From Rhodococcus sp. CH91 (GTDB lineage: Bacteria; Actinomycetota; Actinomycetes; Mycobacteriales; Mycobacteriaceae), in NCBI RefSeq assembly GCF_022554085.1, contig NZ_JAKFYR010000004.1, forward strand, positions 248,001-312,000: DNA of 64,000 nt. The letters run 5' to 3'. Of the stretch, positions 47,947 through 64,000 are shown piece after piece; position 1 is the stretch's first letter, and the number at the start of each line of letters is the position of its first letter. Below the pieces are notes generated by a model. The model had not been told where the DNA came from and searched no databases. It saw only the letters and a list, made by a program, of their open reading frames with translations. The position numbers and the translations under genes were made by a program.

Positions 47947-49800
47947 TCACGGAGCGTCGGAGGCGGGGGGCCCGCAGGGCGGATCGATCTGCCTCCGGCG
48001 GAGGATCTCCTCGAGTTCGGCCGCAGGTTTCGGTGTGCTCAGCAGGAATCCCTGCGCGCGGTGGCAGCCGAGTCCGAGCAGCGTCCGGGCAGCCGCCGCC
48101 GATTCGAGTCCCTCGGCGATGACGTCGAGCCCGAACGCGGAGGCCAGGCCGACGATCGATTCGACGATGACGCGGTCGCCCGGGCTGCGCTGGAGATTGA
48201 GTACGAACGCCTTGTCGATCTTGAGAGCGTGGACGGGAAGCGATTTGAGATGCGCGAGGGAGCTGTATCCCGTGCCGAAGTCGTCGATCGCACAGGACAC
48301 CCCGAGCCTGTCCAGTTGCCGCAGGGTTGCGTGGGTCCGTTCGAGGTCGCTCACCACCACGTACTCGGTGATCTCCAGGCACAGCGACGAGTGGCCGAGC
48401 CCGAACTCCTCGAGGATGCCCTCCACCATGTCCACGAACTCGATGCTCACCAGCTGGGCCGGCGAGACGTTGACGCTCATGCGTAGATCGAGTCCGGGTG
48501 TCCGTCGCTGCCAATCCGCCAGCTGTGCACAGGCGGTCCGGAGCACCCAGCGGCCGAGCTCGCCGGCGAGGTTGGTCGCTTCGGCCACCTCGATGAATTC
48601 CGCCGGCTGCAGGCGGCCGAGCACCGGATGATCCCAGCGCACGAGGGCTTCGACGCCCAGGATGCGGCCGTTGCGCAGATCGAACTCGGGTTGGTATTCG
48701 AGCGTGAGGTGCTCGTCGTCGATCGAGTCCCGCAGGCTCAGTTCGATGATGGTGCGACGCTCGCTGGCGCCGTGCATGTCGTCGGTGTACGCCTCCACAC
48801 CGTTTCCGCCCTTGCTCTTGGCCCGCATCATCGCCTCGTCGACCCGGCCGAGCAGCGCCACCGGTTCCACCCGGCCCGGTTCACCGACGGCGACGCCCAG
48901 GCTGGCGCCGCGACCCACCACCTGGCTACCGAGCTGTACGGACAATCCGACGACCCAGCGGAGTTCCTCCGCCCGTTCGCGCGCCTTCTCGAGCGTCAGC
49001 GGGCCGTCGAAGACGACGACGAACTCGTCACCACCGAGCCTCGCGACCATGTCCGCGGGATCGCACACCCGCGACAGGCGCCGCGCGGTCCGGCACAGGA
49101 AGGTGTCCACCGCGGTGTGCCCGAGGAAGTCGTTGAGGGGCTTGAGCCTGTCCAGATCGATGAACACGGCGGCCACCGGTCCGGGTTGCCCGGGTTGCAG
49201 TCGCCTGTCGAGATATTCCAGCAGGGCTCGTCTGCTGGCCAGGCCGGTGAGATCGTCGTGATAGGCCGCTTCCCGCAGTTCGCGTTCGGCACGGACACGC
49301 GCCTGCACCTGCGCCAGCATCGCCGCGATCATCGTGAGGGTGTAGATCTCGTCCTCGCCCCAGCAGCGGTCGCCGGCCTTGACGAAGCCCAGGGCGCCCG
49401 TGGTGATCTGCCCCGAGATCAGAGGAACCGCCACGACCGACACTGTGGGACCTCCCGAGCCGCCGACCGTGTCGGCATATCCGCTGCCCGTCCACTCGGT
49501 CTTGACGACCGCCGGTTCCCGCATCTTCTCGGTGAGCGCGAAGATCGGAGCCGCGTTACCGAAGAACACCACGCCCAGTGGATCCGGATCGGGAACGGAC
49601 GACCGCGGTGGCCATTCCGCGACGAGAACGCTCGCGTGGATGTCGTGGTCGTTGTACCTCAGGAACGCCGCATCGACGTCGAAATACTCCACGAGTTCGC
49701 GCAGCACGATCTCCGTCACCCCGCGATGCGACACCGAATCCACCGGCATCAGTTGCCCCGCCACCGCCGCGACGAGACTTTCGAGACTCCCCAACCCCAT
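47947..49800 (-). CDS. GAF-GGDEF-EAL cyclic-di-GMP protein
   Basis: A 617-residue cytosolic regulator of c-di-GMP. Residues 1-165 look like a GAF-type sensor (VVFFGNAAPIFALTEKMREP, SVVAVPLISGQITTGALGFV). The GGDEF domain (about 170-335) has HDDLTGLASRRALLEYLD and the active GGDEF in MVARLGGDEFVVVFD; the product-inhibition RxxD is absent (reads DPAD), so feedback may be weak. The EAL domain (about 355-600) has VEALVRW, SVNVSPAQL, DDFGTGYSSLAHLK and IAEGLES, all intact. Synthesis and breakdown are both possible. ATG 49800 follows GGGGGGAGA; the 42 upstream codons are not conserved-looking. Confidence 0.93.
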   Translation of the reverse strand: MGLGSLESLVAAVAGQLMPVDSVSHRGVTEIVLRELVEYFDVDAAFLRYNDHDIHASVLVAEWPPRSSVPDPDPLGVVFFGNAAPIFALTEKMREPAVVKTEWTGSGYADTVGGSGGPTVSVVAVPLISGQITTGALGFVKAGDRCWGEDEIYTLTMIAAMLAQVQARVRAERELREAAYHDDLTGLASRRALLEYLDRRLQPGQPGPVAAVFIDLDRLKPLNDFLGHTAVDTFLCRTARRLSRVCDPADMVARLGGDEFVVVFDGPLTLEKARERAEELRWVVGLSVQLGSQVVGRGASLGVAVGEPGRVEPVALLGRVDEAMMRAKSKGGNGVEAYTDDMHGASERRTIIELSLRDSIDDEHLTLEYQPEFDLRNGRILGVEALVRWDHPVLGRLQPAEFIEVAEATNLAGELGRWVLRTACAQLADWQRRTPGLDLRMSVNVSPAQLVSIEFVDMVEGILEEFGLGHSSLCLEITEYVVVSDLERTHATLRQLDRLGVSCAIDDFGTGYSSLAHLKSLPVHALKIDKAFVLNLQRSPGDRVIVESIVGLASAFGLDVIAEGLESAAAARTLLGLGCHRAQGFLLSTPKPAAELEEILRRRQIDPPCGPPASDAP

Positions 49801-50010
49801 GTCCGTCTCCCCCCTACGGCATCGATACTGCCGACGGGCACGACGATCCGTCGACGAATCCCCCGAAAACGACGGAGCGGCGCGCACTTCGTCGTGCGCG
49901 GTCGTCGGGCCGTACTCCGTCGCCATTCCCGCTCGTCCCTCGCTCGCCGGGTCCGTCCCCCTAGGCGGACACCGTCATGCTCGGGCACCGGGCAGGTGCG
50001 CCCCGCCGCC

Positions 50011-51046: not shown

Positions 51047-51148
51047 GACCCTATAGTTGCCGACTAGAAGTATGATTCCATCGTTCTTACATACCTTATG
51101 CAGCCGATAGGCCATCGACACCCATACGACGTCCGGGGGATCTCATCG

Positions 51149-52360
51149 ATGAATTGCCGACTGTGCGCTTCCCCGAGGATGCGCAGCGTCCTCGACCTCG
51201 GCGTCCTGCCGTCGAGCGAGAGGTTCCTGTGCCCGGACGAACTCGATCTGCCCGAAATCGGATACCCGCTGCATCTGCGCCTGTGCGAGGACTGCCTGCT
51301 CCTGCAGGTGCCGGAATCCGCTCTCCACACCGTCCCCGCCGACCGGCCGCCGCCCGTCGCTCGCAGCAAGCGGGGAGCCGAAGCCCGCGACTTCCTGGAC
51401 CGGGCCATCGGCCGCCTCGGTCTCGGGTCCTACTCCCAGATCGTGCAGGTCTCGAGCCACGACGGATATCTGCTGCGTCACGCCGTCGAAGCCGGCATCC
51501 CCTGCCTGGGAGTCGAGGCCTCGGCACGCGCGGGAACGACCGCCCGCGGACTCGGCGTACCCACCGTCACGGCATTCTTCGACGAGGCGGTCGCCGAGGA
51601 TCTCTACCGGGAGTACGGGCCGGCCGACCTCGTCGTCGCCGACCACATCTTCTCCCAGGTCCAGGACATCCACTCCTTCGTTCGCGGACTGCGCACCCTG
51701 GTAGCCGACCACGGCACGATCTCGCTCGAAATACACAACGCTCTTCATCTGGTGCGCGACAAGCGATTCGACAGCATCGACCACGGCCGGCTCCAGTACT
51801 TCACCGTCCTGACCGCGATGCGCGCGCTCGCCGGGGGCGGCCTGATGGTCGTCGACGTCGAACCGGTCGACACCGCCGGCGGAACACTCCGGATCTGGGC
51901 CCGCCCCGAGGAGACCGCACCCGCGCAGGGTCCGCGCGTCGAGGACGCACTCGCAGAGGAGCGCAATTCCGGTATACATTCCGCGGCCGGTTATTCCGTC
52001 CTCGAGAACCACGCCCGAGCGACCCGCGCCGCCACTCTCCGACTCCTCCTCGACTACCGCGACCGCGATCTGTCGGTGATCGGCTACGGCGCAGAGGGAT
52101 ACAGCACCGTCCTCAACTACTGCGGCATCCGGCCCGACCTGATGAGATACACGATCGACACCGATCCGCTGCGCCAGGGCACCTACACCCCCGGCACGCG
52201 TGTACCCGTGCGCGCGCCCGAGCAACTCCACGAGGACCACCCCGATGTCGTGATGGTCCTGCCCTGGAGTCACCCACCGGATCCCATCGAGCATCTGCAG
52301 TACATCGACTCGTGGGGCGGGCGACTCGTCTTTCCCCCACCCACCGCACCGGGAGCGTGA
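51149..52360 (+). CDS. Deoxysugar-type C-methyltransferase
   Basis: A 403-residue three-domain C-methyltransferase of the NovU/TylC3/EryBIII type, which methylates NDP-keto-sugars. The N-terminal zinc domain has C3/C6 and C46/C49 (MNCRLC, LCEDCLLLQ). The middle SAM-binding domain has IVQVSSHDGYLLRHAVEAG (family form is usually IGSNDG) and ADHIFSQVQDIHSFV; the C-terminal domain has VIGYGAEGYSTVLNYCGI. ATG 51149 with GGGGGA upstream is chosen over ATG 51098. As the first gene of the operon it implies a branched-chain methyl sugar in the glycan. No dedicated deoxysugar dehydratase is seen here. Confidence 0.87.
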   Translation: MNCRLCASPRMRSVLDLGVLPSSERFLCPDELDLPEIGYPLHLRLCEDCLLLQVPESALHTVPADRPPPVARSKRGAEARDFLDRAIGRLGLGSYSQIVQVSSHDGYLLRHAVEAGIPCLGVEASARAGTTARGLGVPTVTAFFDEAVAEDLYREYGPADLVVADHIFSQVQDIHSFVRGLRTLVADHGTISLEIHNALHLVRDKRFDSIDHGRLQYFTVLTAMRALAGGGLMVVDVEPVDTAGGTLRIWARPEETAPAQGPRVEDALAEERNSGIHSAAGYSVLENHARATRAATLRLLLDYRDRDLSVIGYGAEGYSTVLNYCGIRPDLMRYTIDTDPLRQGTYTPGTRVPVRAPEQLHEDHPDVVMVLPWSHPPDPIEHLQYIDSWGGRLVFPPPTAPGA

Positions 52361-52364
52361 CGAC

Positions 52365-53300
52365 ATGAGCAGGAACGAGCACCGAGCGCATCCCCCGGCC
52401 ATCCGCCCGCACCACGACACGAACGGACTCATCATGTCTTCCAGCCACGTGGGGGCCTCCCCCGACGCGACCCCTTCCGACACCGCTCCCGCGCCGGACG
52501 CCTCGATGTCCCGGCTCCCCCGACGCGGTCACGTCTCTCCCCTGGTGAAACCGACCGCCAGCCTGGTCATTCCGGTCCGGAACGAGGCCAGGAACATCGC
52601 GTGGGTACTCGGGCAGATACCCGAGGAGATCACCGAGATCATCATCGTCGACGGCGCCTCCACCGACGTGACGATTCTGACGGCCCGGAGCGTACGGCCG
52701 GACATCCGCGTCGTACAGCAGGAAGGCGTCGGCAAGGGCAGCGCGCTACGGACGGGTTTCCTCGCGGCCGAGGGCGACCTGATCGTCATGATGGACGCGG
52801 ACGGAAGTATGGCACCGCAGGAGATCCCGCACTATCTCCATTTCCTCAACAACGGTTACGACTTCGTCAAAGGATCCCGCTTCGTCGCCGGTGGTGGATC
52901 CCTCGACATCACCCGACTCCGGACTCTCGGAAACCGTTTCCTCCTCGGCGTTTTCAATTCGCTCTACGATACCCACCTCACCGACCTGTGCTACGGATTC
53001 TGCGCGTTCCACCGTCGCTATCTCGACCATCTGAAGCTGTCGGCGACGGGTTTCGAGATCGAGGCGGAGATGGTCGCCGCGGCGATGCGAGCGGGTCTGC
53101 GGATCGCGGAGGTACCGAGCATGGAGATGCCCCGCCGTAGCGGAAAGTCCAACCTGCGCGCGGTGCGCGACGGAACGCGGGTGCTGCAGGCGGTGCTCGA
53201 TGCCCACAGCAGCGAGAAGTCCGGCCTGCTGGCGCGGGTGGCCCATCCGCGCCGACGCACCGCGCCGCCGGCCACCTCCCGCGCACTGGGGCCGGCGTGA
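52365..53300 (+). CDS. Family 2 glycosyltransferase (polyprenyl-phosphate sugar transferase-like)
   Basis: A 311-residue GT2 enzyme. After a disordered 60-residue N-terminus the GT-A fold begins: ASLVIPVRNEARNIAWVLGQ, EIIIVDGASTDVTIL, VGKGSALRTGFLAAEGDLIV and the metal-binding MMDADGSM (about residue 143). LCYGFCAFHRR and EIEAEMVAAAMRAGLRIAEV match dolichol-/polyprenyl-phosphate glycosyltransferases, suggesting it charges the polyprenyl carrier or adds an early sugar. ATG 52365 is 4 bases after the previous stop; its own stop overlaps the next start. No C-terminal membrane helices. Confidence 0.88.
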   Translation: MSRNEHRAHPPAIRPHHDTNGLIMSSSHVGASPDATPSDTAPAPDASMSRLPRRGHVSPLVKPTASLVIPVRNEARNIAWVLGQIPEEITEIIIVDGASTDVTILTARSVRPDIRVVQQEGVGKGSALRTGFLAAEGDLIVMMDADGSMAPQEIPHYLHFLNNGYDFVKGSRFVAGGGSLDITRLRTLGNRFLLGVFNSLYDTHLTDLCYGFCAFHRRYLDHLKLSATGFEIEAEMVAAAMRAGLRIAEVPSMEMPRRSGKSNLRAVRDGTRVLQAVLDAHSSEKSGLLARVAHPRRRTAPPATSRALGPA

Positions 53301-54688
53301 GAGCCACCTCGCGCACGGGGGCGGCGTCTGCTGCGGAACGCCCCGCAGCCGCCCGGATGATCACCCTCGAAGACCTGCCGGTACCGCGGACCGACGTCGA
53401 GTTGAGTTCACCCCCACAGGTTCTCGATCTCGTCGGCGACCGTACGTCCTCGACGAAGATCATGGCTCTGGTGCGTCTGCACGGACACCCGGTGGGGCTG
53501 GTCGTGCTCGACGGCAGGCACGGCCTGCACTGGCACGACCATCGTGATGCCGTGTGGTCCGCCGTCGGCGAGGGGGTGAACACGCATCTCTCGTCCGACG
53601 GTCTCTCCGCGGTGTCCCGCCCGGAGGCACTGTGCTCGTCCACCGCCGGCGCCGACGCGACGCCCCGATGCCGGATCGTCCGCGACGAGACACTCGAACA
53701 CGCTCCGTTCGTCACCGTCGTCGTGGCGACGAGGGACCGGACCGACAGCGCCCGTATCTGCCTGGACGCCCTCACGGCGATGGACTATCCCGCCTTCGAG
53801 GTACTCGTCGTCGACAACGACCCGCCCGACGACGAGACCGCGCGGATGGTCGCCTCCTACGGCGATCCCCGCGTACGGTATCTCCGCGAGGACCGTCGGG
53901 GTCTGTCCTCGGCGCACAATTGCGGTCTCGACGCCGCACGCGGCCCGATCATCGCGTTCGTCGACGACGATGTCGTCGTCGACCGGCACTGGCTCACCGC
54001 TGTCGCCGAGGCCTTCGCGTCCACCGACGGCGTCGGATGCGTGACCGGGTTGATTCTTCCGGCCCAGCTCGAGACCCCCGCCCAGCTTCTGCTCGAACAG
54101 CACGGCGGATTCGACAAGGGCTTCGAGATGCGCGTCTTCGACCGCCGTGAGCGTTCCTCCGACCCTCTCTTCCCCTTCACGGCAGGGCAATTCGGATCCG
54201 GGGCGAACATGGCGTTCGACACCGCCATCCTGCGGGAACTCGGCGGATTCGATCCCGCCATCGGCGCCGGTACGTTCGCGCGCGGCGGCGACGACCTCGC
54301 CGGGTTCTTCCGTGTCGTCACCGCCGGGCACAGGCTGGTCTACCAGCCCGGAGCCGTCGTCTGGCACCGGCATCACCGTGACATGAGCGCGCTGCGCAAT
54401 CAGGCCTACGGATACGGCGTCGGACTCGGGGCGTTCGTCGCCAGTTCGATCGCCCGTGACCCCAGGGCACTGTTCGGCTTGCTCCGCCGCCTGCCACGCG
54501 CCGCGGACCGCATCCTGCGCACCTCGTCGGAACACAACCGTGCCCGCTACGACAAGCTGCCCGGCGGCCTGGCGACTCTCGAGCGACGCGGCGTGTTGTT
54601 CGGCCCTGCCGCCTATCTGGTGAGCCGCTGGCGGACACGCGGCCAGGACGGCCGGCGAGCGGTCACAGGGACGAGAGGTGGCCGGTGA
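53297..54688 (+). CDS. Family 2 glycosyltransferase with N-terminal extension
   Basis: A 463-residue glycosyltransferase. Residues 1-135 are an extra domain of unknown fold (MITLEDLPVPRTDVELSSPP, MALVRLHGHPVGLVVLDG) found in some actinobacterial GT2 proteins. The GT-A domain starts at VTVVVATRDRTDSARICLDA (about 138), has VLVVDNDPPDDETARMV, RRGLSSAHNCGLDAARGPII and the DDDV metal motif in AFVDDDVVVDRHW. GANMAFDTAILRELGGFD and ARGGDDLAGFFRVV form the acceptor part. GTG 53297 overlaps the previous stop (GTGA), and its own stop overlaps the giant fusion gene. It probably adds one repeat-unit sugar on the cytosolic side. Confidence 0.88.
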   Translation: MRATSRTGAASAAERPAAARMITLEDLPVPRTDVELSSPPQVLDLVGDRTSSTKIMALVRLHGHPVGLVVLDGRHGLHWHDHRDAVWSAVGEGVNTHLSSDGLSAVSRPEALCSSTAGADATPRCRIVRDETLEHAPFVTVVVATRDRTDSARICLDALTAMDYPAFEVLVVDNDPPDDETARMVASYGDPRVRYLREDRRGLSSAHNCGLDAARGPIIAFVDDDVVVDRHWLTAVAEAFASTDGVGCVTGLILPAQLETPAQLLLEQHGGFDKGFEMRVFDRRERSSDPLFPFTAGQFGSGANMAFDTAILRELGGFDPAIGAGTFARGGDDLAGFFRVVTAGHRLVYQPGAVVWHRHHRDMSALRNQAYGYGVGLGAFVASSIARDPRALFGLLRRLPRAADRILRTSSEHNRARYDKLPGGLATLERRGVLFGPAAYLVSRWRTRGQDGRRAVTGTRGGR

Positions 54689-57600
54689 ACGACATCTCGT
54701 CCGGACGGCGGATGGTCACGGCCTTCCACGTCCCTCTCCCCGGATTCGCCGTGCCCCGCTCCTTCCTCCGAGATCTGCAGAATCCGTTGCTGCGCAACGG
54801 GATGCTCTTGACGCTCAGCGCGGTGCTGTCCGCGGCCATCGGATTCGTGTACTGGGCGATCGTCGCCCGTTACTACGACGCGGCGACCGTGGGTACGAAC
54901 TCGGCCGCGATCTCCATGGCCATGCTCACGGCGGCGATCGCACAGCTGAATCTTGCGGGGGCGATGTCGCGGTTCGTCCCGGCCGCAGGTCGCAGCACCC
55001 GGCGTCTGGTGGGTGGGGCATATCTCGTGACCCTCACGACCGCACTCGTGGTCGCGGTGGTCACGGTAGTGCTCGTCCCGATCGTCTCACCGGAGACCTC
55101 GTTCCTCGATCATCCCGGCACCCAGTTGCTCTTCGTCGTCGGCACGGTCGGATCCGCCCTGTTCGTGCTGCAGGACGGCGTGCTGACCGGACTCCGGCGC
55201 GCGGCCCTGGTCCCGGTGGAGAACGTCACTGTCGCCGTGGTCAAGATCGGCATGGTCGTGGCGTTCGCCGCGCTGGTCCCGGCGACGGGCATCTTCCTGT
55301 CGTGGACGGCCTCGCTTCTGTTGTCCGTACCGATCCTGGCCGGGTACATCTTCTTCCGGGCGATCCCCCGGCACGCCGCCGCGGCCGACGGCACCGAACA
55401 ACTCCCGCCGATCGGGCAGCTCTCCCGATTCGTGACGGTGGACTACATCGGGGCCGTGTGTTCGATCGGTGCCACCGCCCTCATGCCGATCCTGGTTCTC
55501 TGGCAGCTCGGCTCCGTCGAGACCGCCTATTTCTCCATCGCCTGGGCGATCGCGAACGCCCTGCACCTGATCAACGTCAATCTCGGGATGTCGCTCGTCG
55601 TCGAGACCGCCTCCGATCAGTCGCACTTCGCGCGCAAGGCCCGCCAGGTGATGGTCCACAGCGCCCGCCTGGTGATCCCCGCCGTGATCGGTCTGCTCGT
55701 GTTCGCGCCGCTCGTCCTCCACATCTTCGGCGCCGAGTATCGGGCCGGCGACGAGGTACTCCGGTTGCTGGCTCTGGCGGCCGTCCCCAACATCGTGGTC
55801 GCCACCGCGATCAGTTCCGCCCGGGCACATCGCAGGCTGCGACTGCTGCTGTCGATCCAGATCACCAACATGGTCCTCACTCTCGGCCTGGCCGCGATCC
55901 TGCTGGAACCGTTCGGACTGGCCGGCGCGGGTATCGCTTTCCTGACGAGCCAGACGACCATCGCCCTGGCCCTCGTATTCCGTCGCGACCTGTGGTTGAA
56001 CGTCGACGCCGCGCACCTTCACCGGCCGCGTGCCCGCCACAACCCCCTCGTGCGAGCACTTCCCGAATCGGCCGTCCGCGCGGGCGCCGCGGTCCGCAGG
56101 TCCCGGCTCGCGGAACGAGTGTCACGTCGACTCGCCTCGCTCGCCGGACTCCGGCGCCCCCGTACCACACGATCGCGGGGCAGCGAGGAAGACCCGAGCG
56201 GCCTGACGGCGGAGTGGCCGTACCGCTGGTCCGTCCCGACCGAGACCGACCTCCGGGTCGAGTTCCTGGGCCGGACGCCTCATCGTGCCGACGCCGTCCT
56301 CAAGACCGCACGTACCGAGCCTGCCGCTGCGGACCTCCGGGCACAGCGTGCCGTCCTCGCCGAGTTGCACTGCGACCACCGGCTCCGGGGATGGCAGGAC
56401 CGCCTACCGCAGATCCTGTCCTTCCACACCGACGCCACCACCACCTCCTCGGTCGAGACGTTCCTGCCCGACAGGGATCTGGCGGCCGTGGTCGCGGGCG
56501 ATCCGGGCCTCCGCGACCGCGCGATCACCACCGCGATCTCCACGATCGACGAGATGCACACCGCCACCGGAGAACTCGTGGTGGTCGACGACGACGCCCT
56601 GGCCGTGTGGGTGGACGAGCCGTTGCGTGAGGTGTCCGAGATGTGCCGCGTGCACTCACCTTCCTACCTGCCGGTGACGGAGGAACTCGGATCCTTCCTG
56701 CGCCGAGTGCTCGACGGACGGGTGATGACGGTCGGCTGGACACACGGCGACTTCCATCCCGGGAACGTGCGTGTGACCGAGGGCGGCGCCGTCCGCGGCA
56801 TCGTGGACTGGGGCGGAGCGCGCCGCGACCTGCCGGTCGTACTCGACGACTGTTTCATGCTGCTGACCTCCTCCGCCCTCGCCGAACGCGGCGAGTTCGG
56901 TGACGTCGTCGGTCGCCGGCTGCGCGCCGGCGGGCTCACCGAGGCCGAACGCGGGATCCGCGCCGCCGCACACGAGGCCCGTCCCGATCCGCTGCGGGGT
57001 GAGGAGCCCCGCGACGAAGCGCTGATCCTGCTCGTCTGGATCCATCACGTCGCCGGTCTCTGCCGTACGAACACCGGGCACCGCGACGATCGGATCTGGT
57101 GGATTCTGAACGGCCTGCCCGTGATGCGCGCACTCCGCGAGATCGGTACCGACCTCGAGGACACCGCCCCGGACGGCACCGATTCCGTCGACCTCGTGAC
57201 GGCAGCGCCCACCGTGACGGCAGCGCCCACTTCCCGCCTCGAGCAGACGATCACCGCCTCCGTGGTGATCTGCGCCTATACCGACCGTCGCTGGGACTCG
57301 CTCTCGCGCGCCGTCGACTCCGTCCGGGCACAGATCCGGTCCGTCGACGAGATCATCGTCGTCATCGACCACAACGAGCCGCTGCTCACCCGTGCGCGGC
57401 ACCATCTGCACGGCGTCACGGTGATTCCCAACGTCTACGAGGCCGGACTGTCCGGCGCCCGCAACACCGGCGTGGCGTCGGCCACCGGCGAGATCGTGGT
57501 GTTCCTCGACGACGACGCTGCCGCGGAAGACGGTTGGCTCGACCGGATGACGGCTCCCTACTCCGATCCCGACGTCCTGGGGGTCGGAGGGTGGGTGGCG

Positions 57601-59934
57601 GCCGACTGGGCGGTGGCGCGCCCGAGCTGGTTCCCTCCGGAGTTCGACTGGGTGGTCGGCTGCAGTTACCGGGGCCTGCCCACCGAGCGCGCACAGGTCC
57701 GGAACATGATCGGCGCGAGCATGTCGCTGCGCCGGGAACCGGTGGTCGCGGCCGGAGGGTTCGCCACCGAACTGGGCCGAATCGGCACCCGGCCACTCGG
57801 ATGCGAGGAGACCGAGCTGTGCATCCGTCTCGCCGAGAGCCGCCCGGGCGGGGTACACATCCACGAACCGTCCGCGCGTGTGCGCCACAGCGTCAGCGAG
57901 GACCGCGCGACCTGGTCGTACTTCCGATCCCGCTGTTACGCCGAAGGCCTGTCGAAGGCCGCGGTGAGCGCGCGCACGGGAGCCGGCCGGGCGTTGTCCA
58001 GTGAACAGCGCTATCTGACCTCCACGATCCCGAAGGGGGTGGCGCGTGAACTCCGAGGGGTGGCGCGTGGCCGGTTCTCCGGTATCGGCGCTGCCCTGGC
58101 GATGATCGCCGGCGTGGCGACCACCACGGCGGGCTATGCGGTCGGCCGCACGGCGGGAATGCTCCGCACCACATCCACTGCCCAGCAACGCACTCCGCGG
58201 AAGTTCCGGTGGCATCCCGCCTACGGCGTCCTGATCGCCGCAGCGCTGTGGCTGGTCTCCCTGCCTCGCATCGACACCGGGAGGATGGGCGACTACGGAT
58301 TGCTGCCCCTGCTCCCCGCCACCTTCTGGGCGGCGCTCGCGGTCCTGCTGGTGAACTTCGGCCTGTCGATCCGCCGGGCGGCGACGCCGACCTGGGTGTA
58401 CGCGGCCCACGTTCTCGTGCTGATCGCCGTCCTCCACGCCACGCCCACGCTCGTCTACGAGACGCTGCGGTATTCCTGGGCGTGGAAGCACGTCGGCATC
58501 GTGGACTTCTTCCTGCGCCACGGCGCCATCGATCCCGGTCTCGGCGAATTGTCGGCGTATCAGTTCTGGCCTGCCTTCTTCAACGCCAACGCGACCCTCG
58601 TCCGAGCGGGCGGACTCGATTCGGCTCTCGGTTACGCCGCGTGGGCCCCGCCCTTCTTCAATCTGCTGCTCCTCGGCCCCCTGTTCCTGATCTTCCGGAC
58701 GTTCACCGAGGACAGGCGGCTGATCTGGACGGCACTCGTCGTCTTCTATCTCGGCGCCTGGGTCGGCCAGGACTACTTCGCGCCGCAGGCGGTCGCTTTC
58801 TTCCTCTACCTGACGGTTCTCGCCCTGGTCCTGCGTTACCAGCGCCCCGAGGTCCCGGCCGCGATCCGCCGGCCGATCGCCGCATTCGCCGTCGTCCCGC
58901 TCATGGCCGCGATGGTGCCCACACATCAGCTGACCCCCTTGATGATGGTCGGTGCACTCGGGTTGCTCGCCGTCTTCCGTGTCCGGAAGACGGCGGTGCT
59001 CACACTCGTGATGCTCGGGATGACACTCGCCTGGGACATCGTCATCGCCGGCCCGTGGCTCGCCGCCGATATCGCCGGCATGTTCGAGGCCCTCGGAGAT
59101 GCGAGCGGTAATGCCGGATCGGGATTCGTCGATCTGGATGCGGGAAGCCGCAGCCAGATGGTTGTCGCCCAGGCCGATCGAGCCCTCTCGGCGGGCATCT
59201 GGCTTCTGGCCGTGACCGGTCTCGTCCGGCGTCTCCGGAGACAGCGAGGATCGTTCGGGCGCCGGGAGCTGGCTCTGCCGTTGCTCGCCGTCGCTCCGCT
59301 GCCGTTGATCGTGAGCAACGACTACGGCGGAGAGATGATCTTCCGTGTCTACCTGCTCGGGCTGCCCTTCGTCGCCTTCTACGCGGCGGCCGCGTTCTTC
59401 CCGGACCGTCTCGCCGGCCGGATCGGCCGCAGCCCGAGAAGCCGCGTGCGGCCGGCCGTTCTCCCGGTGGTTCTGGTGCTCCTCGTGACGGGCTTCGCCT
59501 TCGGCTACTACGGCAAGGAGCAGACCGCCCATTTCACCGCCGACGAAAAGGCCGCTTCCGAGTTCCTCTACGGCGTGGCTCCACGCGGTTCGCTCGTGGT
59601 CGGGGCGTCGAGTGGATTCCCATGGGCCTTCGAGAACTTCGAGTTCTACGACCACATGTGGTTCGCGAGCTTCGAAGTCCAGGACCGCGAGGAGATCCTG
59701 GCCGATCCGGCGGACACGCTCGCCGACATGATGAATCCGGTCGACCACCATCACGCCTACCTGATCATCACCCGCAGTCAGCAGGAAGGCATGGTGCTGT
59801 CCGGTGATCTGCCCGACGACGCACTGCCGAACATCGAGACGACGCTGGCGGATTCGCCGCGATTCACACTCGTCTATCGCAACCCCGACGCCGTCATCTT
59901 CACGCTGACCCAACCCCGGCCGGAGGACTCATGA
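54685..59934 (+). CDS. Four-module glycan protein: flippase + phosphotransferase-like kinase + GT2 + GT-C/polymerase-like membrane module
   Basis: One uninterrupted 1749-residue reading frame. Residues 1-430 form a MOP/Wzx-type flippase with about 12 spans (LRNGMLLTLSAVLSAAIGFV at the start, DLWLNVDAAHLHRP at the end), then a basic linker. Residues 510-850 are an aminoglycoside-phosphotransferase-like kinase fold with catalytic HGDFHPGN (H687, D689, N694) and metal site IVDWGG (D708). Residues 855-1160 are a family 2 glycosyltransferase with ASVVICAYTDRRW and D942-D944 in VVFLDDDAAAEDG. Residues 1175-1612 have about ten membrane spans with large loops (FFLRHGAIDPGLGELSAYQF), like GT-C transferases or Wzy polymerases, then a 135-residue external tail. 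GTG 54685 overlaps the previous stop. Flippase and GT2 are clear; kinase substrate and the last module's activity are inferred. Confidence 0.85.
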   Translation: MNDISSGRRMVTAFHVPLPGFAVPRSFLRDLQNPLLRNGMLLTLSAVLSAAIGFVYWAIVARYYDAATVGTNSAAISMAMLTAAIAQLNLAGAMSRFVPAAGRSTRRLVGGAYLVTLTTALVVAVVTVVLVPIVSPETSFLDHPGTQLLFVVGTVGSALFVLQDGVLTGLRRAALVPVENVTVAVVKIGMVVAFAALVPATGIFLSWTASLLLSVPILAGYIFFRAIPRHAAAADGTEQLPPIGQLSRFVTVDYIGAVCSIGATALMPILVLWQLGSVETAYFSIAWAIANALHLINVNLGMSLVVETASDQSHFARKARQVMVHSARLVIPAVIGLLVFAPLVLHIFGAEYRAGDEVLRLLALAAVPNIVVATAISSARAHRRLRLLLSIQITNMVLTLGLAAILLEPFGLAGAGIAFLTSQTTIALALVFRRDLWLNVDAAHLHRPRARHNPLVRALPESAVRAGAAVRRSRLAERVSRRLASLAGLRRPRTTRSRGSEEDPSGLTAEWPYRWSVPTETDLRVEFLGRTPHRADAVLKTARTEPAAADLRAQRAVLAELHCDHRLRGWQDRLPQILSFHTDATTTSSVETFLPDRDLAAVVAGDPGLRDRAITTAISTIDEMHTATGELVVVDDDALAVWVDEPLREVSEMCRVHSPSYLPVTEELGSFLRRVLDGRVMTVGWTHGDFHPGNVRVTEGGAVRGIVDWGGARRDLPVVLDDCFMLLTSSALAERGEFGDVVGRRLRAGGLTEAERGIRAAAHEARPDPLRGEEPRDEALILLVWIHHVAGLCRTNTGHRDDRIWWILNGLPVMRALREIGTDLEDTAPDGTDSVDLVTAAPTVTAAPTSRLEQTITASVVICAYTDRRWDSLSRAVDSVRAQIRSVDEIIVVIDHNEPLLTRARHHLHGVTVIPNVYEAGLSGARNTGVASATGEIVVFLDDDAAAEDGWLDRMTAPYSDPDVLGVGGWVAADWAVARPSWFPPEFDWVVGCSYRGLPTERAQVRNMIGASMSLRREPVVAAGGFATELGRIGTRPLGCEETELCIRLAESRPGGVHIHEPSARVRHSVSEDRATWSYFRSRCYAEGLSKAAVSARTGAGRALSSEQRYLTSTIPKGVARELRGVARGRFSGIGAALAMIAGVATTTAGYAVGRTAGMLRTTSTAQQRTPRKFRWHPAYGVLIAAALWLVSLPRIDTGRMGDYGLLPLLPATFWAALAVLLVNFGLSIRRAATPTWVYAAHVLVLIAVLHATPTLVYETLRYSWAWKHVGIVDFFLRHGAIDPGLGELSAYQFWPAFFNANATLVRAGGLDSALGYAAWAPPFFNLLLLGPLFLIFRTFTEDRRLIWTALVVFYLGAWVGQDYFAPQAVAFFLYLTVLALVLRYQRPEVPAAIRRPIAAFAVVPLMAAMVPTHQLTPLMMVGALGLLAVFRVRKTAVLTLVMLGMTLAWDIVIAGPWLAADIAGMFEALGDASGNAGSGFVDLDAGSRSQMVVAQADRALSAGIWLLAVTGLVRRLRRQRGSFGRRELALPLLAVAPLPLIVSNDYGGEMIFRVYLLGLPFVAFYAAAAFFPDRLAGRIGRSPRSRVRPAVLPVVLVLLVTGFAFGYYGKEQTAHFTADEKAASEFLYGVAPRGSLVVGASSGFPWAFENFEFYDHMWFASFEVQDREEILADPADTLADMMNPVDHHHAYLIITRSQQEGMVLSGDLPDDALPNIETTLADSPRFTLVYRNPDAVIFTLTQPRPEDS
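57196..57230 (+). repeat. 18-bp in-frame tandem duplication in the fusion-gene linker
   Basis: Units 57196-57213 and 57214-57230 (the last lacks one base) each encode VTAAPT. The duplicated hexapeptide lies in the linker between the kinase-like and GT2 modules and keeps the reading frame. Confidence 0.85.
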
Positions 59935-60371
59935 AGCACCGCATCGAGCCCGGGCCCGCGCCCCTTTCGGAACGGCTCTCGGCGCTCGCACGCCGTGCCC
60001 GGAAGGTGTCGCCGGCACTGTGGATCATCGCCCTGTCGGGATGCCTCGCCCTAGTGTGTACGGCGACCGTCGATCCCGGTTCGGCCTGGACCGTGGTGCG
60101 CGCGATCGTCGTGTTCTCTTTCGTCCTGTTCGCACCGGGCTGGGCTGTCGTACTGCATCTTCCGTTGCAGTACGCGCTCGAGAAGGTGGTGACGGCGGTA
60201 GGGCTGAGCATCTTCTCGCTCCTGCTCGTCTCCGTGGGTTTCACCCTCGCGCACAACCCCTCGACCGAGGCGCGCCTGGTGACACTGGCGGCACTGACGA
60301 CCCTCGTGTCCACCGCGGCCGCGTACCGGCAGATCCGGACATCGGCACCGCAGGAGGTGGTGCTGCGATGA
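59931..60371 (+). CDS. Small integral membrane protein of the glycan operon
   Basis: A 146-residue protein with three or four hydrophobic spans: ALWIIALSGCLALVCTATV (about 29-47), TVVRAIVVFSFVLFAPGWAV (about 54-73), VTAVGLSIFSLLLVSVGFTL (about 87-106) and a weaker LAALTTLVSTAAAY. The FAPGWAVVLHLP stretch resembles DUF1616-type membrane proteins found with actinobacterial glycan genes. ATG 59931 overlaps the fusion-gene stop (ATGA) and its stop overlaps the deacetylase start. It may be an accessory subunit of the fused transporter/polymerase; no catalytic motif is visible. Confidence 0.78.
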   Translation: MKHRIEPGPAPLSERLSALARRARKVSPALWIIALSGCLALVCTATVDPGSAWTVVRAIVVFSFVLFAPGWAVVLHLPLQYALEKVVTAVGLSIFSLLLVSVGFTLAHNPSTEARLVTLAALTTLVSTAAAYRQIRTSAPQEVVLR

Positions 60372-61213
60372 CCGTCGTTCCGATTCTGCTCTACCACTCG
60401 GTCTCGTCCGATCCGGCGTCGTGGATCGCGCCCTACACCGTCACTCCGGAGACCTTCCGGACACACGTCGAAGCGATGCTGGCGAGCGAACGCACGCCCA
60501 TGACGGTCAGCGAGTTCGTCGCGGCGGCGAACGGATATCGCGTTCTTCCCGAACGGCCGCTGATCGTGACCTTCGACGACGGCTTCGAGGACTTCCTGTC
60601 CGCGGCGGGCGTCCTGTCGTCGGCACGCCTTTCCAGCACCCTCTACGTCACCACCGGAGCGCTGCGCGGACGGCCGCCCACCTCGCTGCACATCCCTCCC
60701 GCACCGATGCTGTCCTGGTCCCAGCTGACCGACCTGCACGAATTCGGTGTCGAGATCGGCGCTCACACGCATACCCACCCGCAGCTCGACATCCTGCCCC
60801 CTCCGGCCGTGGCCGACGAGATCCGCCGCAGCAAAGGGCTTCTCGAAGAGCATCTGGGCAGGTCGGTCCCCAGCTTCGCGTATCCCCACGGATTCCACTC
60901 CGCACGGGTGCGCACCGCGGTCGCACGAGCGGGCCACAATTCCGCCTGCGCCGTGGGCAACGCGCTCAGTTCCACGACGGATCGTTCACTGAGCCTCGCA
61001 CGGCTCACCGTCCGCTCCGACACCAGCGCGGCCGATCTCTCCCGATGGCTGTCCGGGCGCGGCGCACCGATCGCGCCTTTTCCCGAGCGGTGGCGGACGG
61101 GTCTGTGGCGCACCTACCGGCGTCTCCGCGGCACTCGATCCTCGCGCGGAGTTCTCCTCCACCAACCCGGCGAGCCGTCACCGCCCGCCGTGTCCCAGAA
61201 CAGGAGTCGATGA
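60368..61213 (+). CDS. Polysaccharide deacetylase (NodB-type)
   Basis: A 281-residue carbohydrate esterase family 4 protein. VVPILLYHSVSSDP starts the NodB domain; the metal/catalytic set is visible as FDDGFEDF (Asp-Asp, about residue 72), GAHTHTHPQLDILP (two histidines, about 138), and AYPHGFHSARVRTAV. It removes N- or O-acetyl groups from amino-sugar polymers. There is no signal peptide or membrane helix, so it would act in the cytosol on lipid-linked precursor, unlike most family members. ATG 60368 overlaps the preceding stop; the long upstream frame lies inside the previous gene. Confidence 0.88.
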   Translation: MTVVPILLYHSVSSDPASWIAPYTVTPETFRTHVEAMLASERTPMTVSEFVAAANGYRVLPERPLIVTFDDGFEDFLSAAGVLSSARLSSTLYVTTGALRGRPPTSLHIPPAPMLSWSQLTDLHEFGVEIGAHTHTHPQLDILPPPAVADEIRRSKGLLEEHLGRSVPSFAYPHGFHSARVRTAVARAGHNSACAVGNALSSTTDRSLSLARLTVRSDTSAADLSRWLSGRGAPIAPFPERWRTGLWRTYRRLRGTRSSRGVLLHQPGEPSPPAVSQNRSR

Positions 61214-61215
61214 CC

Positions 61216-62211
61216 ATGCGTACTCTCGTGACCGGTGCAGCCGGTTTCATCGGATCGAACCTCGTCGATCGTCTCCTGACCGAGGGGCACCACGTCGTCG
61301 GGGTCGACAATCTGTCCACCGGGCGGGCGTCGAACCTCGACTCCGCCGCCGAGTCGAACCGGTTCACCTTCGTCGAGACGGACGTCTCGCTGCCCGATCT
61401 GCAGGCGGTGGTCGCCGGGACGCGGCCCGACGTCGTCTTCCACCTGGCCGCCCAGGTCGACGTCCGCCGCTCGGTGACCGACCCGTACCACGACGCGGCG
61501 ACGAACGTCCTGGGGACCATCAACATCGCGGAGGCGTGCCGGAAGGCGGGCACCCGCCGGATCGTCTTCGCCGCTTCCGGTGGCTCCCGATACGGCGAGC
61601 CGATCACACTGCCGGTGCGGGAGGAGGTTCCGGCATGCCCACTGTCCCCCTACGCCGCCGGTAAGGTCGCAGCGGAACTGTATCTGGGGTGCTATGCGGG
61701 CATGTACGGTCTCGCGCCCGTCAATCTCGCGCTGTCGAACGTCTACGGCCCGAGGCAGGATCCGCACGGTGAAGCCGGCGTGGTCGCGATCTTCGGATCG
61801 GCGATGCTCGCGGGGCGTCCCGCCGTGATCTACGGAGACGGCTGTGCGACACGCGATTACGTCTACGTCGGCGACGTGGTCGACGCCTTCGCCCGTGCCG
61901 CGACGGCCCCGACGTCGGTGACCGGCACCTTCAATATCGGGACCGGAATCCAGACGTCCACCGCGGATCTGCATCGATTGATGAGCGAGGTGGTGGGCAG
62001 CACCGAACCCCCTCGGCTCGAAGGCGGCCGCACCGGTGAGATCCGGGCGATCGCGCTGGACCGCAGCGCGGCGCGCGCGGCACTGCAGTGGGATCCGCGC
62101 ACGAGCATTCGCGAGGGACTGCAGCTGACGGTCGAGTGGCTCCGCCGGACGACCGACGACGTGGTACCGGCCGGCACCGCAGTCACCGTGTCCGAGGGGA
62201 GCTCACGGTGA
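61216..62211 (+). CDS. NAD-dependent nucleotide-sugar epimerase/dehydratase (GalE-like)
   Basis: A 331-residue extended SDR. The NAD site is MRTLVTGAAGFIGSNLVDRL (TGxxGFIG), then GVDNLSTGRASNL, FHLAAQVDVRRSV, ASGGSRYGEP with the active serine, and YAAGKVAAELY with the YxxxK pair (SPYAAGK). AGVVAIFGSAMLAGRPAVIYGDG and RDYVYVGDVVDAF fit UDP-glucose/UDP-GlcNAc 4-epimerases. It supplies an activated sugar for the glycan. ATG 61216 has GGAG at 9 bases; ATG 61210, which overlaps the previous stop, is the alternative. The stop overlaps the next start (GTGA). Confidence 0.9.
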   Translation: MRTLVTGAAGFIGSNLVDRLLTEGHHVVGVDNLSTGRASNLDSAAESNRFTFVETDVSLPDLQAVVAGTRPDVVFHLAAQVDVRRSVTDPYHDAATNVLGTINIAEACRKAGTRRIVFAASGGSRYGEPITLPVREEVPACPLSPYAAGKVAAELYLGCYAGMYGLAPVNLALSNVYGPRQDPHGEAGVVAIFGSAMLAGRPAVIYGDGCATRDYVYVGDVVDAFARAATAPTSVTGTFNIGTGIQTSTADLHRLMSEVVGSTEPPRLEGGRTGEIRAIALDRSAARAALQWDPRTSIREGLQLTVEWLRRTTDDVVPAGTAVTVSEGSSR

Positions 62212-63290
62212 CGGCCACCGCCGACCGACCGGCACAGCGACTCGCCTCCGGCCGCGAGATCTCCCGGAGCCTGTGGCACGAACTGCACCGGGCCGATCCG
62301 TACGCACTCCCCACCCAGTCACCCGAATGGATGGACGCGCTGACGCACAGCGGCGGATACCAGGATGCGGGACGGTTGTACACGAACCAGCAGGGCACAC
62401 ACGCACTCCTCCCCCTGGTACGGCGCACCTATCCCACCGGGGGTCCGGCGATATTGCAGTCGATGCCGAGCAGCTGGGGCTTCGGCGGCCTGATCGCCCC
62501 CTCGGGGGTCACGCCGGAGCTGGTGAGCGGTGTACTCGACGATCTCGAGCACTCCTCCGCTCTGCGGGTGCGGATACGCCCCAATCCCGTGCACGCGGCC
62601 GCCTGGGAGGAGGCGGCCGCGGGCCGTGCCGGGGTCACGGCGATCCCGGCACGCGCGCACGTCCTCGATCTCGAGGGCGGTTTCGAGAAGGTGTGGACGG
62701 AACGTATGGCGGGCTCCACGCGCACCTCGGTGCGGCGCGCGGAGAAGCGCGGGGTCGTCGTCGAGACCGACGACACCGGACGCTTCGTGCCGGTCTTCTA
62801 CGAACTGCTGCTGCGGTCCTTCGACCGCTGGGCTCGCGCCCAGCACGAACCTCTCTGGCTGGCACGCTTCCGGGGACGTCACCGCGACCCTCGGACCAAG
62901 TTCCGTGTGATCGCGGAACGGATGGGTCCGCGATGCCGGATCACCGTCGCGTGGGTGGAGGGCCGGCCCGCTGCTGCCATCCTGGTTCTCCGGGACGGCG
63001 CGAACGCGCACTACACCCGCGGAGCGATGGACAAGGAACTCGCCGCCCCCGTCCGCGCCAACGTCCTCCTGCACCGCATCGCCATCGAGGACGCGTGCCG
63101 ATCCGGCTGCCGCACCTATCACATGGGTGAGTCCGGCTCGTCGCACACGCTCTCCCGCTTCAAGGCCCAGTTCGGTGCGGTTCCGGTGGACTACGCCGAG
63201 TACTGGATCGAACGCGTCCCCGTCCACCGGGCCGACCGGGCGCTGCGCGGATACGTCAAACGAGCGATCGGATTCGTCGATGCGCGGTGA
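62208..63290 (+). CDS. GNAT/FemAB-like acyltransferase
   Basis: A 360-residue protein with the double-GNAT layout of FemAB/BioF2-like proteins: SPEWMDALTHSGGYQDAGRL and a first half to about residue 150, then MAGSTRTSVRRAEKRGVVVE, RWARAQHEPLWLARFRGRHR, VAWVEGRPAAAILVLRDGAN and GCRTYHMGESGSSHTLSRFK in the second GNAT half. Such proteins transfer amino acids or acyl groups to cell-wall sugars or peptides. Here it probably N- or O-acylates the free amine made by the deacetylase or an amino sugar in the repeat. GTG 62208 overlaps the previous stop; the stop is inside the next gene's start. Confidence 0.82.
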   Translation: MTATADRPAQRLASGREISRSLWHELHRADPYALPTQSPEWMDALTHSGGYQDAGRLYTNQQGTHALLPLVRRTYPTGGPAILQSMPSSWGFGGLIAPSGVTPELVSGVLDDLEHSSALRVRIRPNPVHAAAWEEAAAGRAGVTAIPARAHVLDLEGGFEKVWTERMAGSTRTSVRRAEKRGVVVETDDTGRFVPVFYELLLRSFDRWARAQHEPLWLARFRGRHRDPRTKFRVIAERMGPRCRITVAWVEGRPAAAILVLRDGANAHYTRGAMDKELAAPVRANVLLHRIAIEDACRSGCRTYHMGESGSSHTLSRFKAQFGAVPVDYAEYWIERVPVHRADRALRGYVKRAIGFVDAR

Positions 63291-64000
63291 CAGACTCGTC
63301 CGACTGGTCGCACCGATCGTGCTGCTGACGACGCTCGCCGCGTGCACGACCGAGTCCCGCCCGCCCGATCGGGCACCCCTGGCCGAGGGCGAATACGTTC
63401 TCGTCGTGAATGCGCAGTCGAGTGATCTCCGCATCCACACTGCCGACGGTCTCGAACCTGCGGGCGACCCGATCGGCGTGGGGACCGCACCGTCCGACGT
63501 CGCGGTGAGCGCCGACGGCCGCCGGGCCTACGTGTCGAGTCCCCTCTCGAACGATGTGACGGTCGTCGACACGGCCGCGGGGCGCGCGATCGGTGACCCG
63601 ATCCGGGTGAGCACCTATCCGGCCGGACTCGCCGTCTCACCCGACGGCAGCCGCCTCTACGTCGCCGGCGGCGAGACCGACGACGTGCGCGCCTACGACA
63701 CCGGCACCGGCGAGCAGGTCGGTGTTCCGCTGCCGGTCGGGGACGCACCCGGTGGCCTGGCTCTCTCCCGCGATGGGGGACGACTCTATGTGTCGAGCAT
63801 CTACCAGAACGACGTGCGTGTGATCGACACGGCCGCCTGGGCCGTGGTCGGCAATCCGATCGGGGTCGGCCGGGCACCCGCCCAGCTGGCCGTGAGCCCC
63901 GACGGCACCCGAGTGTTCGTGGCCGGACAGGATGCGGGGGACGTGACGGTCGTCGACACGCGGACGCGGACGACGATCGGTGATCCGATACCTGTCGGGG
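63280..64000 (+). CDS. Beta-propeller (YVTN-type) lipoprotein, N-terminal part
   Basis: The visible 240 residues begin with a lipobox signal (lipidated C22 in LLTTLAACTT) and then a series of about 42-residue YVTN-type repeats, each with GxAPxDVAVSxDG-like and LYV/AYVSS...DDVxVxDTxT motifs, at least five before the window ends. The fold is a surface or periplasmic beta-propeller, usually a binding scaffold. ATG 63280 overlaps the previous gene by 11 bases. It could bind the polysaccharide or its assembly machine. The gene continues past the right edge, so total repeat number is unknown. Confidence 0.83.
   Translation, partial: MRGDRLVRLVAPIVLLTTLAACTTESRPPDRAPLAEGEYVLVVNAQSSDLRIHTADGLEPAGDPIGVGTAPSDVAVSADGRRAYVSSPLSNDVTVVDTAAGRAIGDPIRVSTYPAGLAVSPDGSRLYVAGGETDDVRAYDTGTGEQVGVPLPVGDAPGGLALSRDGGRLYVSSIYQNDVRVIDTAAWAVVGNPIGVGRAPAQLAVSPDGTRVFVAGQDAGDVTVVDTRTRTTIGDPIPVG

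Follow-up and report, generated by a model that had tools for sequence, protein, structure and literature searches.

The fusion gene and its neighbors

The window analyzed here, a stretch of 64,000 nucleotides from Rhodococcus sp. CH91, contains a gene cluster on the forward strand in the midst of which lies one very long open reading frame. A preliminary description had read this frame as a fusion of a flippase, a kinase, a family 2 glycosyltransferase and a polymerase. The features of the cluster are the following, with the modules of the fusion placed beneath it.

51098..52360, +, C-methyltransferase (Methyltransf_13/14; Pfam 1.6e-40), start of the cluster
52365..53300, +, GT_J, a family 2 glycosyltransferase (GT2) resembling the polyprenyl-phosphate sugar synthases AglJ and PpgS (NCBIfam AglJ 138.8 bits, cut-off 325; PpgS 51.8 bits, cut-off 370)
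53297..54688, +, GT_B, a second family 2 glycosyltransferase (Pfam 3.1e-23), the end of which overlaps the fusion start
54685..59934, +, four-module fusion gene, 1749 aa, GTG start; same architecture in loci L027 and L127
54787..55980, +, module 1, MOP-type flippase, residues 35-432, 12 predicted membrane segments (weak Pfam Polysacc_synt, home-made profile, hydropathy)
56215..57144, +, module 2, APH-fold kinase, residues 511-820, catalytic K540, H687, D689, N694 and D708 (Pfam APH 5.9e-15)
57256..58149, +, module 3, family 2 glycosyltransferase, residues 858-1155, DDD at 942-944 (Pfam 2.8e-20)
58219..59931, +, module 4 (residues 1179-1749), polytopic in the membrane and possibly GT-C-like, ending in a C-terminal tail of 142 residues (alignment A1, hydropathy)
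59931..60371, +, small protein with a faint DUF1616 likeness (Pfam 2.7e-5, under cut-off)
60368..61213, +, polysaccharide deacetylase, NodB type (Pfam 9e-20)
61210..62211, +, NAD-dependent sugar epimerase/dehydratase (Pfam 7e-51)
62208..63290, +, FemAB/GNAT-like acyltransferase, start chosen by eye (Pfam Acetyltransf_6 1.8e-14)
63280..64000, +, beta-propeller, likely a lipoprotein, start and lipobox by eye (Pfam Lactonase 5.2e-11); the frame runs 287 bases beyond the window end

The fusion is a single open frame of 1749 codons without an N, as had been described. Its start overlaps the stop of GT_B, and at the other end its stop shares bases with the ATG of the gene that follows. Third-position G+C is high along the whole frame (mean 0.86; 0.68 in the lowest 60-codon window), including the three linkers between modules (0.74-0.86). 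The presence of four modules is confirmed, and the limits originally proposed for them (residues 1-440, 500-850, 855-1160 and 1170-1749) were close to those found here.

The four modules

Profile searches of the separate segments gave a divided result: the GT2 and APH matches lie above their Pfam cut-offs, the Polysacc_synt match lies below, and module 4 has no Pfam match. With catalytic residues and further profiles considered, the flippase, the kinase and the GT2 that had been named are all upheld, the flippase less strongly. In the window protein, Polysacc_synt reaches 7.5e-4, and the score of 481 bits against a home-made flippase profile is from a profile that includes the window sequence itself. 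Across alignment A2 (69 rows, 53 of them with a flippase), Polysacc_synt matched 18 members (best 2.9e-9), MatE three, MurJ two and APH 21. Alignment-averaged hydropathy, a simple method, predicts 12 helices in module 1, one of the two numbers (12 or 14) characteristic of the MOP group, and the tail behind them holds 18 K/R against 4 D/E. With 12 predicted segments and then this K/R-rich tail, the kinase and GT2 modules would be expected on the cytosolic side. No membrane segment over the threshold is predicted by the same alignment hydropathy in either of these two modules.

The kinase assignment is firm at the family level, with APH (PF01636) matching residues 531-727 at 56.1 bits (cut-off 23.2, 5.9e-15). 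The APH motif consists of a catalytic H-x-D....N and a metal-binding D, all of which are present in the window kinase as H687, D689, N694 and D708, together with K540 and W709. Named antibiotic phosphotransferases (Mph, APH(9)) were considered and rejected for this domain, which scores at most 21.2 bits against NCBIfam cut-offs of 500-675. The GT2 module matches PF00535 at residues 859-1019 (73.4 bits, cut-off 23.3, 2.8e-20); in its DDD motif, D942 and D943 are found in 91/93 rows and D944 in all 93. The best NCBIfam profile for this module is AglG (NF041394), at 201.5 bits and under the curated cut-off of 440.

Module 4 is harder to place. It has about 12 predicted membrane segments, one of them borderline, followed by an acidic 142-residue tail (simple hydropathy method). 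Alignment A1 comprises 54 rows with 17 invariant columns, H1414, E1550 and R1554 among the invariant residues; the family (58219-59931 in the window) is marked by invariant W-Q-Y-PQ, H-TP and Y-E-R motifs across its 54 aligned members. Position 1274, in what may be the first long outer loop, is D in 42 of the 54 and E in four. No credible Pfam family was found for the module in the window or among the 54 members; chance-looking Pfam names occur in one to three of them, the best being UL74A (0.0022, in three). NCBIfam gave echoes of archaeal STT3 (archaeo_STT3, 0.0015), the WsfD hexose transferase (0.0052) and the LA_3751 glycosyltransferase (0.027), each in a single member. These three transferase echoes are suggestive and no more; TraO (2/54, 0.082) and VPxxxP_CTERM (1/54, 0.096) look like chance. 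A comparison with solved structures returned one chance-level match (0.29). By eye, the loop at 1258-1296, with a conserved H, the D/E and Y..WP, bears what we take to be a resemblance to the first outer loop of GT-C enzymes. At most, a GT-C-like fold is a weak guess.

Profile-profile comparison does little to settle the matter. Using hhalign, module 4 gave 32% with PMT_2, 29% with Wzy_C, 10% with GT87 and 0.1% with the flippase, the reference loci being those kept by a hydropathy-based choice of frame (18/30 for PMT_2, 22/30 for Wzy_C and 28/30 for GT87). Among the control pairs, PMT_2-GT87 gave 96%, GT87-Wzy_C 45%, PMT_2-Wzy_C 3% and PMT_2-flippase 0.3%. The 32% and 29% of module 4 carry little weight, because the GT87-Wzy_C control itself reaches 45%. 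The original designation of module 4 as a GT-C/Wzy-like polymerase stands as far as its polytopic nature is concerned; a Wzy polymerase is not borne out, as the Pfam and NCBIfam matches listed for the 54 members include no Wzy or O-antigen ligase family. That module 4 is nevertheless a Wzy-type polymerase, with a long polysaccharide as product, is unlikely, though compatible with other readings of the fusion. The invariant H1414, E1550 and R1554 and a Wzy_C value near that of PMT_2 may speak for a polymerase; the missing family match and the likeness of loop 1258-1296 to a GT-C outer loop, judged by eye, speak against it.

Conservation of the fused frame and its parts

Two further genomes of the same family carry all four modules in this order within one frame, where single matches cover residues 31-1747 and 32-1746. 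One is Mycolicibacterium elephantis DSM 44368 (L027), which belongs to the window's family and another genus; the other is a second Mycolicibacterium genome, so that three genomes with the fusion are known, the window's included. Over the full length, the window protein is 48% identical to each relative and the relatives are 62% identical to each other. Module by module, the window shares 52, 36-39, 58-59 and 52-53% with the two relatives (modules 1-4), and the linkers 8-26%. The three fusion genomes group together in the flippase tree (SH-aLRT 99, a quick method). We therefore rejected the view of the fusion as an oddity of one genome. A frame or assembly error joining neighboring genes is extremely improbable: nothing was found in favor of it beyond the general occurrence of long open frames in GC-rich genomes, and it is ruled out by the same joined frame in three genomes that are 48-62% identical.

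The architecture is rare. Among 80 loci kept of 89 found in named genomes, L027 has the only four-module frame, and further samples added G389 and G471, the latter being the same record as L027. The frame was found in 1/18 genomes of the window's genus, 2/401 of the family, 2/396 of the genus of G389, 1/397 of the order and 1/396 of the phylum; these samples overlap and differ in their cut-offs, and the window genome is the one found in genus, order and phylum and one of the two in the family. Within the window's genus, five of the 17 other genomes have matches at 1e-25. In four of them (G001, G010, G011 and G016), the flippase and GT2 are separate frames, as is module 4 in three, and no kinase was found in the stretches read. 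This agrees with the original remark that such jobs are normally carried out by separate genes: elsewhere, the parts are carried by adjacent genes of one cluster or are partly fused. The fusion is real, kept and rare; its parts are known, and its architecture has apparently not been described before.

The linkers bear on the question of whether the frame yields one chain. The ribosome-binding score is -7.1 at the fusion start and -9.5 at the next gene, while in-frame ATG, GTG and TTG codons in the window linkers score -3.5 or weaker. Since the GT_B start itself scores only -4.7, these values give no sharp separation, yet the gene sequence leans toward a single chain. If the chain were instead cut or internally started, separate proteins would do the work and the fused frame would be mechanistically meaningless. 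The poorly conserved linkers with their in-frame start codons would suit such a split, particularly CTG507 in the window (-5.6) and several linker codons in L027 and L127 (-5 to -6.5). We consider it very unlikely, as no internal start in the window gene matches the fusion's own in ribosome-binding score, a contrast blurred by the value for GT_B.

Other combinations of the same parts occur in partial fusions, which were recognized in stop-to-stop frames by means of home-made profiles. GT2 and module 4 are fused in L028, L029, L030, L031, L032, L033 and L077, and flippase, GT2 and module 4 in L034. L034 (9919-15243, without a kinase) and L028 (9856-15311, where the flippase is a separate overlapping frame) are near sisters in the flippase tree. 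Two loci (L105, 11335-16287; L134, 7178-10849) have flippase and module 4 in one frame with neither GT2 nor kinase between them. The flippase and kinase are fused in L039, L073, L097, L138 and the rhizobial loci L262, L263 and L264. On rhizobial megaplasmids, these flippase-kinase frames adjoin the same glycan cluster in Sinorhizobium fredii (plasmid pSF83666b; L262, 7710-10427), Shinella zoogloeoides (L263, 9572-12313) and Ensifer adhaerens (L264, 8887-11442). In the last kinase tree, flippase and kinase are joined in 10 of 39 rows across three phyla: Actinomycetota (the window, L027, L127, L138 and L039), Chloroflexota (L073) and Pseudomonadota (L097 and the three rhizobial plasmids). The kinase is a separate gene in 16/17 Streptomycetaceae rows. 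Taken as unrooted, this tree of 39 rows is consistent with an early joining of flippase and kinase and a later separation, at the cost of four changes among fused, separate and orphan states. Two loci carry broken genes, either pseudogenes or the result of sequencing errors: in L041 (17677-18952) the kinase is spread over three frames, and in L265 (6438-10767) the kinase, flippase and module 4 are scattered over several. Neither kinase entered the residue counts and trees, and L089 was omitted from the last tree.

The surrounding cluster is likewise conserved in part. The gene order GT_J, GT_B, fusion, deacetylase, epimerase and propeller is common to all three fusion genomes, whereas for the methyltransferase, DUF1616 and acyltransferase genes of the window the stretches of the two relatives gave no match. 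Flippase, GT2 and module 4 occur together at 61 loci; a kinase is present in 28 of these, the broken one of L041 included, and is not found in the fetched stretch of the other 33. GT_J accompanies 28/28 kinase-bearing loci versus 29/33 without a kinase, and the deacetylase 28/28 versus 25/33, for which the p-value of 0.006 is too small since the rows are related. A gene-family search for kinase companions mostly gave apparent shadow frames and was used only for the counts of cluster genes.

All 28 cluster kinases read (25/25 and 3/3 rhizobial) retain the catalytic H, D, N and D; the lysine, read in the 25 only, is R in one (L133). Kinases of the same lineage also occur outside any fusion, in 12/396 genomes of the genus of G389, which is that of M. 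elephantis (L139, L140, L236 and L250-L258). These orphans fall into a single clade (99/95) next to L027/L127, and the window kinase branches outside the two groups. None of the 12 genomes, one of which (G729) is only 80% complete, has a module 4 match at 1e-15; the kinase is the sole match in nine, whereas G150 also has a GT2 and G099 and G459 a distant flippase. Thus, the kinase can persist apart from the flippase. Six of the 12 orphans lack one catalytic residue and look like decaying or repurposed remnants; set against the intact cluster kinases, their loss makes it appear from sequence that catalysis is required wherever the remainder of the machine occurs. The other six are intact, and together with neighboring GT_J (4/12) or epimerase (5/12) genes they fit a role independent of the flippase; three of the 12 have neither neighbor. 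It is these neighbors, in stretches read without flippase, GT2 or module 4, that favor a kinase for soluble sugars, which would provide sugar phosphate for nucleotide-sugar supply and leave the fusion only to equalize the amounts of its parts. APH-fold enzymes act on hydroxyls of small substrates, which also counts for this alternative. We regard it as rather unlikely, given that the repeated fusion partner is a flippase, in three phyla, and that half of the orphans have lost a catalytic residue.

A possible exit route for a lipid-linked glycan

The fusion and its cluster share features with several known systems. Wzx/Wzy assembly likewise combines a flippase and glycosyltransferases within one cluster; the window differs in having no Wzy family match and in possessing a kinase and a fused architecture. 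The Arn and mycobacterial PpgS/Rv3779 routes share a set consisting of a polyprenyl-phosphate sugar synthase, a deacetylase or deformylase, a flippase and a GT-C transferase, but they use single-sugar donors and are not known to involve a kinase or a fusion. In the haloarchaeal Agl pathway (AglJ, AglG, AglR, AglB), glycans are built on polyprenyl monophosphate by parts encoded in separate genes. Of the NCBIfam profiles, AglJ scores best for GT_J and AglG for the GT2 module, although both scores lie far under the cut-offs (138.8 of 325; 201.5 of 440). Read together with what is known of the Agl, Arn and PpgS routes, these best profiles make the pathway look like one built on a polyprenyl monophosphate carrier.

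To our knowledge, the nearest described architecture is that of mycobacterial MurJ with its pseudokinase domain. In MurJ (MviN), this domain reportedly lies behind the 14th helix and is phosphorylated by PknB (PMC6180346), so that the window protein and MurJ both have an intracellular kinase-fold domain behind the last flippase helix. In MurJ, the pseudokinase is non-essential, lipid II is the proposed cargo and no transferase modules are attached, whereas the window carries an APH domain with catalytic residues and two more enzymes. By analogy with what has been proposed for MurJ, the kinase could be a regulatory protein kinase or a sensor of the attached flippase or transferase, and it does sit at the same place in the chain as the MurJ pseudokinase. 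This is quite unlikely: no MurJ-type Ser/Thr kinase-like domain was found behind the window flippase, the domain there being APH by Pfam, and, unlike a pseudokinase, the kinases of the cluster members read retain their catalytic residues. MprF, the lysyl-phosphatidylglycerol synthase-flippase, also unites a synthase and a flippase in one chain (PMC5898192); it differs in its phospholipid cargo, its two modules and their families. The available part of a paper on the lipocone names an APH-like kinase in a figure legend and gives no account there of the four-module architecture (PMC12419801). The assertion that no protein with this full order had been described is in line with our search of the open-access literature, in which no description of such a fusion was found; the frame itself exists in two more genomes.

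We propose, with about even chances, that the fusion is a single membrane chain of approximately 24 predicted segments that joins the last steps in the synthesis of a surface glycan linked to polyprenyl phosphate. GT_J would prime the lipid carrier. GT_B and the GT2 module, judging from their family, might then lengthen the glycan at the inner face of the membrane. The cytosolic kinase module could phosphorylate the lipid-linked glycan, or license its release, before the attached flippase turns it over, which is the least certain step. Finally, module 4, which may be GT-C-like and ends in a soluble tail, would move the glycan to an acceptor outside. This proposal is backed by the conserved frame, the identity of modules 2 and 3 (and less strongly of module 1), the intact catalytic residues, the conserved cluster and the recurrent coupling of flippase and kinase. 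Counting against it are the orphan kinases without a fusion, the 33 of 61 clusters without a kinase in the stretch fetched, and CTG507, which is a stronger potential start than that of GT_B. The earlier idea that the fusion places glycan-lipid charging, transfer, flipping and polymerization in one membrane machine is partly supported; charging by the kinase is a guess.

A bolder, tentative and somewhat doubtful extension would define a class of kinase-coupled flippases in three phyla: a lipid-linked glycan would be phosphorylated by a cytosolic APH-fold kinase, and this would license the flippase to which that kinase is joined. A small number of Mycobacteriaceae would have gathered extension, phosphorylation, flipping and outer transfer, and with them the entire exit route, in a single polypeptide that serves a lipid-linked sugar as a covalent channel. 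Separate proteins make it hard to test whether inner-face glycan enzymes pass their lipid-linked product directly to a flippase and from there to an outer transferase; a natural chain with all of the modules brings this question within reach of a single gene. The repeated fusion of the kinase to a flippase, moreover, points to a phosphorylation step outside the standard scheme.

A defense or phage origin of the locus was considered and rejected: no PADLOC family was found, PHROGs gave two weak glycosyltransferase matches, and no phage record matched at 1e-10. Upstream of the cluster, on the reverse strand (47947-49926, -), the window also encodes a likely cyclic-di-GMP protein, in which GGDEF and EAL-like motifs can be recognized by eye.
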